From IMG/VR virus record IMGVR_UViG_3300021368_000782, positions 1 through 61,454 of that record: 61,454 nt of DNA. One strand, 5' to 3'. Of the stretch, positions 2,153 through 61,454 are shown one piece after another (the stretch's first letter is position 1; every line of letters begins with the position of its first letter). The stretch comes from a virus. The position numbers and the translations under genes are program-made. The notes under the pieces are model-generated. The model was not told where the DNA came from. It searched no databases and worked only from the letters and a program-made list of their open reading frames with translations.

Positions 2153-3492
2153 ACTTAACTTCCTTTCTAACCGACGATGTTCAGCACAAAAAAACTATCC
2201 GTATTCTTGTCTATCCTAACATCACGTTTTCAAAGGACCTGACGAAAGATAGTTATATTCAGGTGATCACTAACATGATCGCCGAACTCAATAACATCAG
2301 AGATGATCTGTTCTTCTATTTGATCCTCCCTGAGTATTTGAAGTGTCTTGATTTTCCAAATACAAAACAGTATTTCATGAAAGTGCCGACGTATCCACCC
2401 ACGATGCGTTCTCACTTTGATGTGTTTCAGTTCAAGAAAATTGTGGGACACGATATTGATATTGACTTGGTATTCTCTCATCTTCCAGAACATACACATG
2501 ATGTCAAGAATGTGATCAGCAATGTGACTCATCACACTCCTGCTTACTTTGGATATTCACATTGGTTTGACTTGGATGAAGTTGTGACTTGGAGTCACCC
2601 AAGTTTCAACCAAAACATGCTTGGTATTCTGAATATGAATCGGTGTTTTATCAACACTCAATCACAGAAAGATCTTGTTCTGAATCAAGCAATGGAAGTA
2701 TTCAATAGAAATACTGTTGGTGCCCTCGATGAAATCCTCACTGTACAGCATCTAGGCGTTCGTAGAAGAGACATTGATAGATCTATTGTACCTTATCGCA
2801 AGACAATCGTATTTAACCATCGTCCAGAGACATATAAGGACTATAAGAATTTCATGAGTATCATGAAAGAACTGAGAAAACAACGTCAAGATTTCAACGT
2901 CTGGGTTCCTTTACTTGAAAAATCTACAGAGAGTTGGATCTCTACTGAAAAGTTTGATAAGAAAGGATACTACAACAAACTATCTGAGTGCTGTGTTGGA
3001 TTCTCTCCAAAGCAATTGTATGGTGGATGGAGTGTTTCTACTACAGATGGATTAATGAATGGTTGTCCTTTCATCATGTATGATGCTGATTACTATCATG
3101 AACTAAATCCAACTGCTGACTTCTTCTCCAATAATGGTGAAGCAATTACTTTGTTGCATAAGTATCTCGATGATCCAACCTATCGTGCAAGTAAGTCTGT
3201 TGAATCTATACATTACTTGGAAGAAAGTCTTTTGTATGAAGATGAGATTGGAATGATGAGTGAATATATTGATGATCTGGTTGGTACTTTGAAGAGCACT
3301 GATTCGGAAGTTACTGATAAACTTGTAAACTTGATTCGTGAGAATGGTTCGATGACAAAGAAAGAATTGTTTGGCGAACATCTTGGTTGGGGACGTGGAA
3401 TTAAGTATGGTCCCTATCGTCGTGCCCTATTGAATCATCCCAACATTTATGATACAATGGGTCCTGAACCTGAATACTGTTGGGTTGAATGA
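2149..3492 (+). CDS. Glycosyltransferase-like protein (GT-B fold suspected)
   Basis: This 447-residue protein is translationally coupled to the DruA-like gene. The central part contains VFNHRPETYKDYKNFM and later SECCVGFSPKQLYGGWSVS, followed by TDGLMNGCPFIMYD. That layout resembles the nucleotide-sugar-binding half of GT-B glycosyltransferases. The last 60 or so residues (ENGSMTKKELFGEHLGWGRG) look like an appended small helical or winged-helix domain. A target such as DNA, a phage protein or host lipopolysaccharide cannot be read from sequence. Confidence 0.5.
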   Translation: MNLTSFLTDDVQHKKTIRILVYPNITFSKDLTKDSYIQVITNMIAELNNIRDDLFFYLILPEYLKCLDFPNTKQYFMKVPTYPPTMRSHFDVFQFKKIVGHDIDIDLVFSHLPEHTHDVKNVISNVTHHTPAYFGYSHWFDLDEVVTWSHPSFNQNMLGILNMNRCFINTQSQKDLVLNQAMEVFNRNTVGALDEILTVQHLGVRRRDIDRSIVPYRKTIVFNHRPETYKDYKNFMSIMKELRKQRQDFNVWVPLLEKSTESWISTEKFDKKGYYNKLSECCVGFSPKQLYGGWSVSTTDGLMNGCPFIMYDADYYHELNPTADFFSNNGEAITLLHKYLDDPTYRASKSVESIHYLEESLLYEDEIGMMSEYIDDLVGTLKSTDSEVTDKLVNLIRENGSMTKKELFGEHLGWGRGIKYGPYRRALLNHPNIYDTMGPEPEYCWVE

Positions 3493-46152: not shown

Positions 46153-46605
46153 ATGGCTGAATTACAAAAGGACCAAATGCTTCTTTCAGAAGTATTGCAA
46201 AAGGTATCTAATGCTAAAACAAAAGCACAGAAGATCAAAATTCTAAAAGATCTTCGTACTGATGCCCTTGTCTCTATCCTGATTTGGAATTATGATGACA
46301 GTGTAAAGTCCATGCTCCCTGAGGGCGATGTACCTTATACACCAAATGATGCACCAGTTGGCACAGAACACACTCGTCTTCTGCAAGAGTATCGTAAACT
46401 GTTCCACTTTGTAAAAGGTGGTAATGACTCACTACAGAGAACTACTCGCGAAAGGATGTTCATTCAAATGCTTGAAGGTCTCAGTTCTGCTGAAGCATCA
46501 CTTATCTGTTTGGTAAAAGATAAAAAACTTCAGAAGAAATACAAAGTAACCAAAGCTTGTATTGATGAGGCATACCCCGACATTGAGTGGGGGAATCGCA
46601 GTTGA
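46153..46605 (+). CDS. Conserved T4-like protein, 150 residues
   Basis: A helical protein starting MAELQKDQMLLSEVLQKVSN with LEGLSSAEASLICLVKDKKL and KVTKACIDEAYPDIEW towards the end. I recall homologues next to rnh in other marine T4-like phages, without a known function. The layout suggests a replication or recombination accessory role (inference). Confidence 0.7.
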   Translation: MAELQKDQMLLSEVLQKVSNAKTKAQKIKILKDLRTDALVSILIWNYDDSVKSMLPEGDVPYTPNDAPVGTEHTRLLQEYRKLFHFVKGGNDSLQRTTRERMFIQMLEGLSSAEASLICLVKDKKLQKKYKVTKACIDEAYPDIEWGNRS

Positions 46606-46859
46606 AGAAAGGAGTTAAAATTCTCCATAAAAAATGTCATCCAGACCTCGCTCAAGATAGATCTCTTCCTTATACAGCTTACTTGGTGACATATGTTGAA
46701 GATGGAGAGACTAGTTACGATATCGCAACCTGTAGTAAACAGGTAGAATTATTTGATTATTATTGGGATCTTTATAGACATGACTTCAAGAGATTCGATC
46801 AAACTGAAGGAAGAGTCAATCCGAAACTTTGGAACCCAAAGAAGGATGAAAAAAAATGA
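46602..46859 (+). CDS. Small protein with TTG start, 85 residues
   Basis: TTG 46602 overlaps the previous stop (TTGA) and gives MKKGVKILHKKCHPDLAQDR; a GTG at 46587 is an alternative. The product has a short beta-rich centre (TAYLVTYVEDGETSYDIATC) and a basic end. It overlaps the next gene by four bases. Function unknown. Confidence 0.6.
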   Translation: MKKGVKILHKKCHPDLAQDRSLPYTAYLVTYVEDGETSYDIATCSKQVELFDYYWDLYRHDFKRFDQTEGRVNPKLWNPKKDEKK

Positions 46860-47020
46860 AAACCTTAGATGTTGCTTTAGTACAATTCTTTCGTAGAGTT
46901 GAAGTGATCACCGCTATGGAGATGGGTGGTAAGATCTCATCAGAAGAGGCTTACCAACGAATCAAAATAGAGATGAAACTACTAAAGAAAAACAGAAAAC
47001 ATATCAACAAAGCCTCCTAA
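46856..47020 (+). CDS. Small basic protein, 54 residues
   Basis: The product (MKTLDVALVQFFRRVEVITA at the start) is helical and ends in a lysine-rich stretch. Its last codons form the 5' arm of a terminator. Function unknown. Confidence 0.55.
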   Translation: MKTLDVALVQFFRRVEVITAMEMGGKISSEEAYQRIKIEMKLLKKNRKHINKAS

Positions 47021-55179: not shown

Positions 55180-55664
55180 GTATATTCTCACTAGTTAAAG
55201 ACGCTGCTGGAGACGAACCAAGATCATTTGGTTGGTATCGAGACAATGTGAAAACTCTTTTTAAGATAAGTGATCTATATGCTGATCTGGTACAACAGGA
55301 AGAGACGCTAAATCCTGTACCAGGACAGTTATACATGTTTGAATATCAGGCAGTCTACGCAGCAAGATTAAATTTCTATGATAGATTCCCTCTTGTGTAT
55401 ATCACAGGTACTGGAGATCCATTTAGAGGTATCAATCTACACTATCTCGCATTGAGACCCAGATTGAACCTAGTATTAAACCTAGAAAATGGTGTTCTTG
55501 CAGGTGTTCCCAAGAGAGCATATCATAACTATCTACTCAAGGGGTTGGAAACTCCCTTATACCTGATAAATAGTGATGATTACAGAACTGCTGCCTTCCT
55601 ACCTGTGGAGGACTTCGGCGGTACGAGTAAAACAGCAGTCTGGAACGGAGCAAAACAACAATGA
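55176..55664 (+). CDS. T4-like structural protein, 162 residues
   Basis: This protein has PGQLYMFEYQAVYAARLNFY followed by DRFPLVYIT and RGINLHYLALRPR, a signature I have seen in proteins near head and tail genes of large myoviruses. Exact T4 equivalent unsure. It is coupled to gene 4 and the tube-initiator gene by four-base overlaps, so it probably acts in virion assembly. Confidence 0.65.
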   Translation: MSIFSLVKDAAGDEPRSFGWYRDNVKTLFKISDLYADLVQQEETLNPVPGQLYMFEYQAVYAARLNFYDRFPLVYITGTGDPFRGINLHYLALRPRLNLVLNLENGVLAGVPKRAYHNYLLKGLETPLYLINSDDYRTAAFLPVEDFGGTSKTAVWNGAKQQ

Positions 55665-56413
55665 CCGTAGAGAGAGTATCAAATCTAAACGTTTTATCAA
55701 ATTATAATGAGTTCAAAGCGAACGTCAGTAAGTTTGGCTATAGTATGGCCAACTTATATGATATTCAATTTGATGTATATCAATCTAGTGCATTGTACAC
55801 AGAACTTGCCTCAGACTTTGATTTGGCAACAGATGAGGGTAGTGCAACTCTAAAGGATATCGCACAGTTGATGAGATTATATACGACTGAGTGTACTATG
55901 CCTGGTGTCACTATGTCCGATAGTGAATATCGAATCACCAACACACCTCAGTTAAAATATGCCTATGGTGCAGTCTTTAATGAGTTTAGTGTTACATTTC
56001 TGATGGATGCAAACTCGAACATCAGGAAGTTGTTTGATAAGTGGACAAACGTCATTTATCCATATTCAGCATTCCAAGGTGCTGGTGATGGTGTTTTAAG
56101 AACTAGATATAAAGATGAGTACATTGCTGATATCACTGTAGTTAAATATGAAAGAGCAACTTCTTCTATAAGGAATAGATCTTTTGCTAATAACATCCCA
56201 GGTAGAAGAATTATTCCAAATGGTGAGAGTGATGCAACTACTGGTTTTAAAGATAACGTTGCAGTTCATGCCGTAAGGATGAAAAATGCATTTCCAAAAT
56301 CTATTGACTCAATGAGTCTTTCTTCTGATGCTGGTCAGATGACTCAGTTCTCTGTTTCATTTGAGTATGAGTCATTACAGACTAGTACTCCTACCAGATC
56401 TGCCCTCAGATAA
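55661..56413 (+). CDS. gp54: Tail tube-like protein, probably gp54 tube initiator
   Basis: This 250-residue protein has MANLYDIQFDVYQ near the start and EFSVTFLMDANSNIRKLFDK in the middle, the tube-protein (gp19/gp54) fold pattern. Its place between gp48-linked genes and gp26 fits gp54, the first layer of the tail tube. The gp19 assignment is less likely because the main tube gene usually lies with gene 18. Confidence 0.7.
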   Translation: MTVERVSNLNVLSNYNEFKANVSKFGYSMANLYDIQFDVYQSSALYTELASDFDLATDEGSATLKDIAQLMRLYTTECTMPGVTMSDSEYRITNTPQLKYAYGAVFNEFSVTFLMDANSNIRKLFDKWTNVIYPYSAFQGAGDGVLRTRYKDEYIADITVVKYERATSSIRNRSFANNIPGRRIIPNGESDATTGFKDNVAVHAVRMKNAFPKSIDSMSLSSDAGQMTQFSVSFEYESLQTSTPTRSALR

Positions 56414-56450: not shown

Positions 56451-57167
56451 ATGCCTTTACCAAAGCTAAACGCTCCAACATATGAGTTGGCACTTCCTTC
56501 CACAGGAAAAAAGATTAGATACCGTCCTTTCCTAGTTAAAGAAGAAAAGATTCTTCTGGTTGCTATGGAATCTGAGGATGAAAAACAAATGCAAGGAGCT
56601 GTAAAACAGATCCTAAAAAACTGCATTCTATCTAGAGGAGTTAAAGTAGATGATTTGTCAGTCTTTGACATTGAATATCTATTCCTCAATATCCGTGGTA
56701 AGTCTGTTGGTGAAGAAGTTAAGTTGAATCTCATCTGTCCAGATGACAACGAAACTCAAGTCGAAGTGACTATTGATATCGAAGACATTCAAGTTCAAAA
56801 ACCTGAAGGTCATGATCGTGTTGTGAAACTAACTGAGGAAGTTGCTCTGGTGATGAAGTATCCAAGTATGGAAACTTTCGTCAAGAATAACATCACAGGT
56901 GATGGTAATAATGTAGATAGTATCTTTGATCTTACAATTGGATGTATTGATCAAGTTGTAGAAGGTGAGGATGTATACGAATCTAGTAGTTTTTCCAAGA
57001 AAGAACTATTAGAATTCATGGATACCATGGATAGTAGTCAATTCCAGTCGGTTCAGAATTTCTTTGAAACGATGCCTAAACTATCTCACACTGTTGAAAT
57101 CACTAACCCCAAGACTGGTGTAAAGAGTGATGTTGTTATTGAGGGTCTACAGAGTTTTTTCGATTAG
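56451..57167 (+). CDS. gp26: Baseplate hub subunit gp26
   Basis: This 238-residue protein is of the T4 gp26/T4_baseplate family, with KLNAPTYELALPSTGKKIRY and PFLVKEEKILLVAMES near the start. ATG 56451 was chosen; an upstream in-frame ATG would precede the late promoter. The last codons, AGT TTT TTC GAT TAG, contain a perfect T TTT TTC slippery site, so a fraction of ribosomes may continue in the -1 frame into gp51. Confidence 0.88.
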   Translation: MPLPKLNAPTYELALPSTGKKIRYRPFLVKEEKILLVAMESEDEKQMQGAVKQILKNCILSRGVKVDDLSVFDIEYLFLNIRGKSVGEEVKLNLICPDDNETQVEVTIDIEDIQVQKPEGHDRVVKLTEEVALVMKYPSMETFVKNNITGDGNNVDSIFDLTIGCIDQVVEGEDVYESSSFSKKELLEFMDTMDSSQFQSVQNFFETMPKLSHTVEITNPKTGVKSDVVIEGLQSFFD

Positions 57168-57346
57168 TTCTAGCTCACGAGTCCCTTGAAAACTATTACA
57201 GAACCAATTTTGTAATGGTCCAACATCACAAGTGGGACCTAGAACAATTAGAAAATATGATGCCTTGGGAAAGAGAAATTTACGTTCAAATGCTTGTCGA
57301 TTATATCGAAGAAGAAAATGAACGAATTAAAAGTCAACAAAGATAA
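57155..57346 (+). CDS. gp51: gp51 baseplate hub assembly protein, likely made by -1 frameshift
   Basis: The -1 frame after the gp26 slip site encodes FFRLVLAHESLENYYRTNFV and then MVQHHKWDLEQLENMMPWER, matching gp51-type sequence. No start codon exists in this frame between a TGA at 57140 and ATG 57215, yet the conserved-looking part begins before that ATG. So gp51 is either the C-terminal extension of gp26 (about 300 residues in total) or a short 43-residue protein from ATG 57215. The organisation mirrors tail-assembly chaperones upstream of tape-measure genes. Confidence 0.7.
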   Translation, partial: FFRLVLAHESLENYYRTNFVMVQHHKWDLEQLENMMPWEREIYVQMLVDYIEEENERIKSQQR

Positions 57347-57349
57347 CTA

Positions 57350-59515
57350 ATGGCACTACCAGCAATTGCAGGAGCATTCACAAAAGGTCTACTAGGTGCA
57401 GGAGCACGTGGGGCGGCGACTGGTGGTGCAAGAGCTATGGCTGGTCAAGCAGCAAAAGGTGCTGCAAGACAAGGATTCAAGAAGTTTGCCAAAGGGATGA
57501 CGGGCAGAACTTCAGATGATTATAAAGCAAGAGTTGATGGTATCAATCCAGAGACTGGAGAATATTTAACACCAGAAGAAAGAAAGGCAAGATTTAAAGG
57601 TTTCTCAGTAGGAACTAAACCAGGATCTCAAAAGTTATTATCTGGTGGACCAACACAGACTGTAGCTGCGTTACCACCCGCTGGTGGCGTTGGTGCTGAT
57701 AGTACTTCTGATACTCAAACTAGGACGGTAAATCATCTGGAAAAAATCCAGATGTATCTAGAAAAATTACTTAAGATTGAAGAGAGTGCTTTAGCAAGAC
57801 TTCAAGATAGAATTCTGGAAACTGCTAAAGAAGATCAAAGAGATGCTGCCGCTGCAGAAGAGAATAAACAAGAAAAAGGAAAACCGAAAGAAGATAGAAG
57901 AAGAGGTAACCCTGTTGTTCAGGGGATGAAGAAGAAAGCTGGAGGAATCTTCCAGTTCTTGATGGATCTTGGGATGAAGTTTATTGGATTCAAGATCCTT
58001 GACTGGTTATCTGATCCAGAAAACAAAAAGAAAATTGATACAGTTGTAGGATTCTTCCAAGGTGTTTGGGGATTCCTGACTGCAGTTGGTACAGCAATTG
58101 GAGATGGTTGGAACTGGACTGTCGAAACTGTTGAAGCAGGTATCGAAGGAATCAAATCATTCGCAAAAGGTATAGAAGAATTCTTCACCTTTGAATGGCT
58201 TGATATTGATGGAATGATGGAACAGTTCAATGGTTTCATCACATTCTTTACTGACGGTGTTAAAAACTTATTGGACGATGCTGTAAATTGGGTTAATAGT
58301 ATTCCAGGATTATTCTCTCAGGTCGGAGAATTTATTGTCGGATCCTTTATGGACTTTTTGGGAATTCCGCAAGATATTGAAGAACCAACGACACCAGTAC
58401 CAGATCCTTCAAAAGATACTGTAGGTGATACAGTACCACAAACAATAGATGTACCTGGGCACGAGACAGAAGATGGAACAGTAATACCTGGAAAGAGTGA
58501 TAACGAAGGACTTCCAGAAATGGGGAAAGGTGGTGCATTGACTGGTCCAAGTCATGCAGGTGGTGGTGTTAATATCAATGCTGAAGGTGGTGAATATGTA
58601 CTGAATAAAAAAGCTGTTGCTGCAATTGGTACACAAGCACTTGACAGAATTAATTTTGGTATGTTCCCGAGTGGATATAAAGGTCCTGGTATGGGTGCAG
58701 GTGGTCATGTTGTTACTTCTACCATGGGTAATAGATCATTTGCATTATCTCCTGGTATGCACATGGGTGTTGATATCTCTACTGGTATCGGTGAAAAACT
58801 ACAAGCGATTAATCCTGGTGTTGTGGAGGGAGTTGGATATGATGGTGGTTATGGTAACTATGTAAGTTGGGTTGATAGTAAGACAGGACTGGGTAACTTC
58901 TATGCTCACATGAATCAAACAGCTAGAGTTAAGGTTGGTCAGAGAGTCAATAAAGGTACAGTTCTGGGATATACTGGTAATACTGGTAGATCTAGTGGTC
59001 CACACTTACATTGGGAAACTGCAACCAATCCTGCTGATACTGGGAGATCAAAATCAGCTGTTCTTTCGAGAATTAATCCTCTAAGTAAATATAATAAAGA
59101 AGCACCTTTCGGTGGTACAGAAACTGCTGTACCAACGCAACCTGGAGAAAAAACTGATTTATCTGCAGATCCACCATCCGAACAACAAAAAGCAAAAGCA
59201 GATGGATCTACTACCACTCCAACTCCAACTCAACCCAAGTTGAGTAAAGAAGCATTAATTCTGAATGCCGCAAATAGTTTGGCAGAAATGATGGGTGGTA
59301 AAGCAGTGAATACTGAAGACATCTTATCCAATCTTCAGAATGAAAACAATAGAGTTACTGGGGAACAGGAATCCGCTGCAGAAACAACAACTGAAACAGT
59401 TAACTTGGATCAGTCTGGAAGTTTTCAGACTGGTATGGATGTTGATTATGATGTACCATCTTTGGGTTTCAACTTCCCACCGTTCTATCAAGCATTCTTC
59501 CCACTTAATCCATAA
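57350..59515 (+). CDS. Tape-measure-like tail protein with M23 peptidase domain
   Basis: This 721-residue protein has an Ala/Gly-rich start, a coiled coil (about 125-160), hydrophobic helices including FKILDWLSDPENKKKIDTVV, a linker, and an M23 endopeptidase domain. The zinc motif is HMGVD (about residue 470) and the second HLHW is near 551. It probably sits inside the tail and cuts peptidoglycan during DNA entry. A GGALTGPSHAGGGVNINAEG segment precedes the peptidase. It shares the LDWxSxPEN module with the next gene. Confidence 0.75.
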   Translation: MALPAIAGAFTKGLLGAGARGAATGGARAMAGQAAKGAARQGFKKFAKGMTGRTSDDYKARVDGINPETGEYLTPEERKARFKGFSVGTKPGSQKLLSGGPTQTVAALPPAGGVGADSTSDTQTRTVNHLEKIQMYLEKLLKIEESALARLQDRILETAKEDQRDAAAAEENKQEKGKPKEDRRRGNPVVQGMKKKAGGIFQFLMDLGMKFIGFKILDWLSDPENKKKIDTVVGFFQGVWGFLTAVGTAIGDGWNWTVETVEAGIEGIKSFAKGIEEFFTFEWLDIDGMMEQFNGFITFFTDGVKNLLDDAVNWVNSIPGLFSQVGEFIVGSFMDFLGIPQDIEEPTTPVPDPSKDTVGDTVPQTIDVPGHETEDGTVIPGKSDNEGLPEMGKGGALTGPSHAGGGVNINAEGGEYVLNKKAVAAIGTQALDRINFGMFPSGYKGPGMGAGGHVVTSTMGNRSFALSPGMHMGVDISTGIGEKLQAINPGVVEGVGYDGGYGNYVSWVDSKTGLGNFYAHMNQTARVKVGQRVNKGTVLGYTGNTGRSSGPHLHWETATNPADTGRSKSAVLSRINPLSKYNKEAPFGGTETAVPTQPGEKTDLSADPPSEQQKAKADGSTTTPTPTQPKLSKEALILNAANSLAEMMGGKAVNTEDILSNLQNENNRVTGEQESAAETTTETVNLDQSGSFQTGMDVDYDVPSLGFNFPPFYQAFFPLNP

Positions 59516-61454
59516 TGGCAATTAAAAGCGCTATCGTACCTTATCAGGCAAATAAATCTTCTGTTATGGTTCAACCACAGCAGTCGATGAGTGCTATCGT
59601 GCCTGTACAGAAAGAGACTGCAAAGAAAGCGGAAGTTACTGCAAGAGATGTAAGAGCATCTGTACTCAGACTACTCAGAAAGAGACAACAAAGAGATAGA
59701 TTAGAAGCAAAATATTATAAGTTAGAGAAGACACTAAACGAAAGACAGAAAGCGAGAAAGGAAGAAGCTAAAAATGAAAACAATAGTTTCTTAGGGAAAG
59801 TTGGTAGTGGATTTAGAAATAGGGCAAAGAAAGCTGGTGGTGATCTCCTTGGTAGTATTGGTAAACTACTAGGTTTTCTTGCCCTGGATTGGATTTCTAA
59901 ACCAGAAAACCAGGCAATCCTCAAAGGTATTGTAGATGTCACTAAAGGAATATTCCAATTTATTGATTGGTGGGTAACTGGATCTGTTGATAATTTATTG
60001 ACTGGTTTCTCTGAAATGGTTGGGGGAGATAGTCTCTTAGAAAGATTTGTCGGATTTATTAAAGTTGTAACAGGTATTCTTGGTCTCAGATATTTCTTAA
60101 AACCAGGATTATTATTCAAAGACTTTAATACAATTAAGAAAGCGATTCAGTCTAAAGGTTTTAGAAAGTTAAATATCTTCTTTAAAAAATGGCAAAAACA
60201 AGGTGCTGGTAAAGCACTTAAGTTTGCCTTCCCTAAGATTGCCACCGTTCTTAGTAGTATTAAGACTAGTTTAGCAAGTAAAATTAGTGGTTCTGGTGTT
60301 GGTAAGTTAATGGAAAAGATCATCACGATGATCAGAGTACAACTAAGTAAAAGAGGTGCTGGTGCTTTAAAACCACTTATCAAAAAAATTGTAAAAGGTC
60401 CGATTCAATTTATCAATAAAATTCCTATTGTTGGTCCATTAATTGGTGCTGGTATTAACGTTGCTCTTGGTGATCCATGGGACAAAGCAATCATTAAAGC
60501 TCTTGGTGCTTCCTTGGGTCAATGGTTAGGTGCTGGTTTAGGTACTCTTATTTTCCCAGGTATCGGTACATTTGTTGGTGGATTCTTAGGTAACCTAATT
60601 GGTGACTGGTTGGGTGGAAGAATCTATGATATGATAACGGGCAAAAATGCTCCACCTCCAACAGAGGAAGAGAAAAAGAGACTTCAAATTGTTCGAGATG
60701 CGATGGACAAAAACTATGATGAGATGAGTGAGTCAGAGAAAGCAGAATACATCGCCAGGATTGCAAAGAAAAATAAGTTGACAGTTGAGCAGGTGAAGAC
60801 TATGCTCGAGAAAAAATCAACTGATCCTGATACCACTTCCGATGGTAACCCACCAGTAGATACCACAGAAGTTACTGGTGGTTTGTTGAAAGGATTGACT
60901 AAAGATGATTATAGAGAACTTGCATTTATTGTAAGTGGTGAAGCTCAAAGAGGAACTAAAGATGAGTATGGTGTTGCAGCAAATGTTTTAATTAGACTTG
61001 CAAGTCCAAATTATCCAAGCACAATTAAAGCTGTTGGCGCTGCTCCTGGACAGTATGAAGCTGTATTCAAAGGAAAAGCAAGATATGACGATGAATTAGC
61101 TGCAAAACTAGAATCACCAGAAGGACAAGCAGAAATTGTAAAAGCTTTAAGAATTTTAAATGGTAGAACAGATTTTAAAGGGACATCGATGTACCAACAC
61201 ATGGGTGCTTCTGACGTTAAATTTTCTGATAGGGGTAACTTCTATCATTATTCTTCCCAGATGAAAAAGAGTGATCCCGTACCATCTCCAATTCCAAATC
61301 AAGAATGGAAAAAATTTATTGGCGGACAAGGTGGTGGACTACCAAAACAAATTCCATCTAGACACAACAGATTATCTGATGTAAGTATGGATGTAGTACA
61401 AAGTAAACGACGCAGACCTAGGAAAAAAGTAACAGTGATCGTCAACAACCAAGG
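59515..61454 (+). CDS. Tape-measure-like tail protein with SleB hydrolase domain (partial)
   Basis: The frame opens at a TAATG overlap with the previous stop and runs off the window, giving at least 646 residues. A basic coiled coil (about 30-80) is followed by LLGFLALDWISKPENQAIL, hydrophobic Gly-rich helices (about 300-365), and a SleB-like domain at about 465-585 with FIVSGEAQRGTKDEYGVAAN, APGQYEAVF, DFKG and DRGNFYHYSSQ. The end is basic. It is a second tail-borne cell-wall enzyme, paralogous to the preceding protein in its core. Confidence 0.75.
   Translation, partial: MAIKSAIVPYQANKSSVMVQPQQSMSAIVPVQKETAKKAEVTARDVRASVLRLLRKRQQRDRLEAKYYKLEKTLNERQKARKEEAKNENNSFLGKVGSGFRNRAKKAGGDLLGSIGKLLGFLALDWISKPENQAILKGIVDVTKGIFQFIDWWVTGSVDNLLTGFSEMVGGDSLLERFVGFIKVVTGILGLRYFLKPGLLFKDFNTIKKAIQSKGFRKLNIFFKKWQKQGAGKALKFAFPKIATVLSSIKTSLASKISGSGVGKLMEKIITMIRVQLSKRGAGALKPLIKKIVKGPIQFINKIPIVGPLIGAGINVALGDPWDKAIIKALGASLGQWLGAGLGTLIFPGIGTFVGGFLGNLIGDWLGGRIYDMITGKNAPPPTEEEKKRLQIVRDAMDKNYDEMSESEKAEYIARIAKKNKLTVEQVKTMLEKKSTDPDTTSDGNPPVDTTEVTGGLLKGLTKDDYRELAFIVSGEAQRGTKDEYGVAANVLIRLASPNYPSTIKAVGAAPGQYEAVFKGKARYDDELAAKLESPEGQAEIVKALRILNGRTDFKGTSMYQHMGASDVKFSDRGNFYHYSSQMKKSDPVPSPIPNQEWKKFIGGQGGGLPKQIPSRHNRLSDVSMDVVQSKRRRPRKKVTVIVNNQ

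Follow-up and report, generated by a model that had tools for sequence, protein, structure and literature searches.

A predicted -1 frameshift from gene 26 into gp51 and a probable two-form tail assembly chaperone in an uncultured T4-like virus

Gene 26 of the marine T4-like phage in IMG/VR virus record IMGVR_UViG_3300021368_000782, analyzed here over the whole stretch of 61,454 nucleotides (the window), very probably encodes a tail assembly chaperone made in two forms, gp26 and a gp26-gp51 fusion reached by a -1 slip, for which T4 uses two genes. Most ribosomes would end at the TAG at 57165 and release the short form, gp26, while a minority would slip back one base on the heptamer T TTT TTC (57155-57161), pass the stop in the -1 frame, and yield a predicted fusion of 298 amino acids. 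By analogy with the G and GT proteins of lambda, gp26 would coat the tape measure protein, and recruitment of tail-tube or hub subunits would fall to the additional C-terminal domain that the fusion carries. In T4, the same two proteins would come from the paralogous genes 26 and 51, where the slip site is absent. The fusion had been put forward in the original prediction, and at the level of sequence it is supported by a conserved slip site, by candidate stimulatory elements, and by the loss of that site in genomes that have a full-length gene of its own for the long form.

All features described in the window lie on the + strand. Gene 26 (56451..57167), whose start was read directly from the sequence as the ATG at 56451-56453, encodes 238 amino acids of the short, TAC-N-like chaperone form and matches PF12322 (5e-75) and phrog_150 (6e-83). 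Its 3' end reads GAG GGT CTA CAG AGT TTT TTC GAT TAG, which confirms the heptamer in the phase of the gene with TTT (57156-57158) and TTC (57159-57161) as zero-frame codons, an X XXY YYZ arrangement for -1 frameshifting located shortly 5' of the stop codon (57165..57167). The distance of six bases to the stop given originally applies to the start of the TTC codon and not to the heptamer, which ends 3 nt before TAG with GAT alone in between. A Shine-Dalgarno-like GAGGG (57141..57145) precedes the heptamer by 9 nt. The -1 frame is open from 57143, past the TGA at 57140-57142, to the TAA at 57344-57346, and its first ATG is at 57215, as had been claimed, with no GTG or TTG earlier. This reading frame (57143..57346) matches phrog_634 (8e-30), annotated as "baseplate hub assembly catalyst." It matches phrog_150 as well, in the C-terminal part where longer gp26-family members that are already fused have their end. 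The gp51 domain would thus be the C-terminal domain of the long form, with the predicted fusion, join(56451..57161,57161..57346), derived from the sequence and its relatives. Coding in the -1 frame across the gene 26 stop was conserved in the relatives compared.

The window's open reading frames contain 34 in-phase A/T slippery heptamers in 16,705 codons, and the one in gene 26 is alone among them in having a stop at most 9 nt away together with a 179-nt extension in the -1 frame that shows homology to a known family. A second candidate, at 46587-46859 and 46850-47020, was rejected. It has AAAAAAA 6 nt before the stop and an open -1 frame, and the downstream reading frame carries an ordinary overlapping ATG, so that ordinary translational coupling is likelier there. 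A near-identity search against GenBank phages gave no match to the window, and no second gp26-like gene was present in this 61-kb record, which is a fragment.

Aligning the junctions between genes 26 and 51 had been proposed as a check, and the first 84 junctions compared (the window, 80 IMG/VR loci, P-SSM2, Pelagibacter phage Mosig, and S-SRM01) all carry the heptamer in phase close to the 3' end of gp26. The distance from the heptamer start to the stop was usually 10 nt, with single cases of 7 and 31 nt. When gp26 homologs were clustered at 80% protein identity, T TTT TTN occurred near the 3' end of the gene in 53 of 54 clusters, ranging from cyanophages to Vibrio, Aeromonas, Stenotrophomonas, Rhizobium, and Caulobacter phages; KVP40-like Vibrio, Sinorhizobium, Acidovorax, Acinetobacter, and Pseudoalteromonas phages also keep the site, and distant phages write it as TTTTTTC, TTTTTTT, TTTTTTG, or TTTTTTA. 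Single distant gp26 proteins used as queries against viral contigs recovered few or zero loci. The residue preceding the two phenylalanines varies (S, A, D, N, T) while the third base of its codon is always T, and serine in this place is encoded by both AGT and TCT. Phe-Phe sites at the junction are written NNT TTT TTY in 51 of 51 cases versus 4 of 53 internal Phe-Phe sites of the same genes (Fisher p = 2e-25, indicative only since the sequences are related). This codon pattern points to selection on the nucleotides that goes beyond the protein. Two near-identical Stenotrophomonas junctions (L096 and L095, both at 3241) have 5 and 6 T, respectively, in the slip run; the difference is probably a sequencing error, and if real it would abolish the normal gp26 end.

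Three relatives of the Ackermannviridae type (Vibrio 1.244.A, Vibrio D528, and Aeromonas phiA8-29; loci L089, L122, and L123) keep a gp51-like -1 frame after gp26 and have CTTTTC or CTTTTTC instead of T TTT TTC. In phiA8-29, the -1 frame has no early start codon. Another slip site or reinitiation is possible in this group.

Two further elements surround the heptamer. The glutamate codon at the place of GAGGG is GAG in 37 of 42 clusters, compared with 31% in the remainder of the genes (p = 8e-14). Downstream, an 11-bp stem lies 5 nt 3' of the heptamer in most cyanophage relatives. The stem was picked by eye and afterwards tested with slid and shuffled controls, so the test leans towards the sequences that suggested it: at least 9 of the 11 pairs form in 60 of 100 sequences versus 0.5% of mononucleotide shuffles, and both the covariation score and the count of double-changed cells exceed those of all 500 shuffles. 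RNAalifold run on the junction alignment returned just 3 pairs. In divergent phages (ME01, SH-Ab 15599, Cr30, LG08, and MED4-213), a comparable position is taken by other, unrelated strong stems. The window (5 of 11 pairs) and its nearest relatives do not form the 11-bp stem, so the signal in this clade would consist of the heptamer and the upstream element.

Termination followed by reinitiation, or an internal start past the gene 26 stop, could instead produce gp51 as a separate small protein and leave the T run incidental. Most cyanophage relatives do have an ATG three codons past the heptamer, database annotations begin there or further in, and Vibrio 1.244.A has a TAATG overlap. The original prediction had named relatives with a normal gp51 start and without the slippery run as its refutation, and these were found in the first respect only: the relatives with the early ATG keep the slip site too, and the window's own clade is without that ATG. 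The window and 18 other loci, most of which conserve the encoded residues, have no ATG, GTG, or TTG among their ten initial -1 codons. The heptamer is moreover constrained at synonymous sites, the ATG of the relatives sits inside the stem with GAGGG too far upstream to be its ribosome site, and the gp51 of T4 itself carries a gp26-like domain. Production of gp51 solely as a separate protein is therefore improbable, and free gp51 from the early ATG in other relatives, as judged from these reading frames, is possible and not needed. This ATG, the missing stem of the window, and the Ackermannviridae junctions without the heptamer are points that weigh against a frameshift. Public records (L082 at 3064-3198, L109 after 2513, and similar ones) show gp51 as a truncated separate gene or omit it, as expected where gene finders do not model a frameshift.

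The shift itself could come from RNA polymerase, instead of the ribosome, slipping on the T run, which comprises six or seven T in nearly all relatives. For transcriptional slippage, six T would be a short tract. The tract keeps six T and a fixed phase, and the upstream Shine-Dalgarno-like element and the spaced stem of the relatives are marks of ribosomal frameshifting, which makes a polymerase origin very unlikely. A sequencing or assembly error that split one gene into two frames has a negligible chance of being the cause and is already refuted by conservation. Homopolymers do attract indels, as the single-T difference between the Stenotrophomonas pair illustrates, but the same arrangement recurs in about 100 independent contigs and in complete GenBank genomes.

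The comparison also offers a reason for the absence of the slip in T4. T4 gp51 has 249 amino acids, of which residues 1-201 are gp26-like (PF12322, 4e-52) and are followed by a gp51 tail (phrog_634, 1e-23), as an alignment also shows; thus, T4 would encode the short form in gene 26 and the fused long form in gene 51, and by their sequences the two proteins are paralogs. A PF12322 scan of 22 complete records found two copies in T4, Jiaodavirus Nispero, Tulanevirus Aes508, and Campylobacter CPt10, none of which has the slip site; of the 18 genomes with one copy, 17 have it (Fisher p = 0.0007, a value that ignores shared ancestry). The occurrence of the two-gene state without a slip site in two separate groups, the T4 lineage and the Campylobacter phages, is a sturdier statement than the p-value. 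Where Phe-Phe is kept in T4-type gene 26, it is written TTC TTT. The two gp26-family genes of CPt10 (L102, 2326-3060, and L121, 894-1571) are widely separated in its genome. One is long and has a gp51-like C-terminus, and the other is short and has no slip site; this arrangement in a distant group is similar to the two-gene state of T4. As a tentative extension, for which the chances seem close to balanced and slightly unfavorable, the routes to the two chaperone forms may be interchangeable within the T4 superfamily: a dnaX-like signal (Shine-Dalgarno-like element, T TTT TTN, and covarying stem), duplication with fusion in the T4 lineage and Campylobacter phages, and, in Ackermannviridae, a non-canonical slip around CTTTTC.

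The original prediction had also read the pair, T4 gp26 and gp51 included, as a chaperone system of the G/GT type. This idea is not new, and it is supported by the paralogy, by gene position, and by a predicted fold resembling the HK97 chaperone. A tail-tube-like gene (55661..56413; PF23849, phrog_45) lies directly 5' of gene 26, and the two tape-measure-like genes expected downstream were found: one with an M23 peptidase domain directly follows (57350..59515), and a second tape-measure-like or cell wall hydrolase protein (59515..61452) runs past the end of the window, both assigned from domain and phrog matches and, for the first, from the tail tape measure annotation in this region in relatives. 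The order of tube-like gene, gp26, gp51, and tape-measure-like gene, in the window and in the annotations of relatives, is the position of a tail chaperone, and the short and long forms have a common N-terminal domain, through the frameshift arrangement here and as separate paralogs in T4. Both tape-measure-like proteins carry domains of the peptidoglycan hydrolase type, the M23 peptidase domain and a weak Hydrolase_2 match.

The predicted model of gp26 has a mean pLDDT of 88. Compared against the PDB, its N-terminal domain (residues 1-92) was closest to the uncharacterised 3FGX (Z 8.0) and to the HK97 tail assembly chaperone 2OB9 (Z 7.8, in the range where chance matches occur through a common arrangement). 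YqbN (3KLU, Z 7.0) and 5IR0 (Z 5.4), the PLE1 tail assembly chaperone (PMC12987554), came next, and unrelated proteins appeared from Z 4.3 downward. Foldseek of the gp26 model gave no significant E-value; since such Z scores can also be reached by a common arrangement, the fold match supports the chaperone reading and does not prove it. No sequence-related solved structure was found for gp26, and a model of the T4-type full-length gp51 had an unrelated protein as its best PDB match (Z 4.8), with no chaperone among the matches listed. For T4, PMC3004832 lists both gp26 and gp51 as hub assembly chaperones and describes gp51 as required yet absent from the particle.

PMC10885494 and PMC12846349 credit Vladimirov, Gautam and Davidson (2022, Virology 566:9-15) with identifying the tail assembly chaperone genes of T4-like phages. 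Citing that work, PMC10885494 describes T4-like phages in which one short and one fused long gene replace the frameshift, and PMC12846349 describes frameshift signals of the poly-T type in the TAC-N genes of such phages. As represented there, these chaperones belong to the same gene family as gene 26, and the window contributes a new uncultured member. The frameshifted T4-like chaperone is thus already known, and the present case is a correct rediscovery in a new phage, with possible added detail from the covariation of the stem, the preference for GAG, and the contrast in copy number. For most marine T4-like phages, our comparisons indicate that translation would append gp51 to gp26, whereas annotations often make it a separate "baseplate hub assembly catalyst"; the gene models in hundreds of genome records may therefore be wrong. 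The comparisons also offer a natural comparison between a protein ratio set by frameshifting and one set by two genes.

The -1 signal of Escherichia coli dnaX combines a Shine-Dalgarno-like element about 10 nt upstream, an A-based slippery heptamer, and a downstream stem-loop. The junction described here resembles it in the upstream element and the heptamer and, in relatives, in the downstream stem; it differs in that the heptamer is T-based and that the stem was not found in the window. The tail chaperone frameshift of Vandenendeviridae and Andersonviridae (phage Adele, PMC12846349) belongs to other phage families and uses the motif GTTTTT rather than T TTT TTC. A further parallel is with lambda G and GT, whose chaperone roles are described in PMC5009743. 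Both systems have a -1 slip near the end of the short gene, a fusion to a C-terminal domain, and a location between the tube and tape measure genes, whereas they share no detectable sequence similarity, the T4-like slip site is T TTT TTC, and the T4-like protein is larger, with a second domain that carries Cys pairs in many members. According to PMC5009743, long-tailed phages conserve the G-T frameshift "except T4," and the two-gene arrangement of T4 would provide a simple reason for this long-listed exception.
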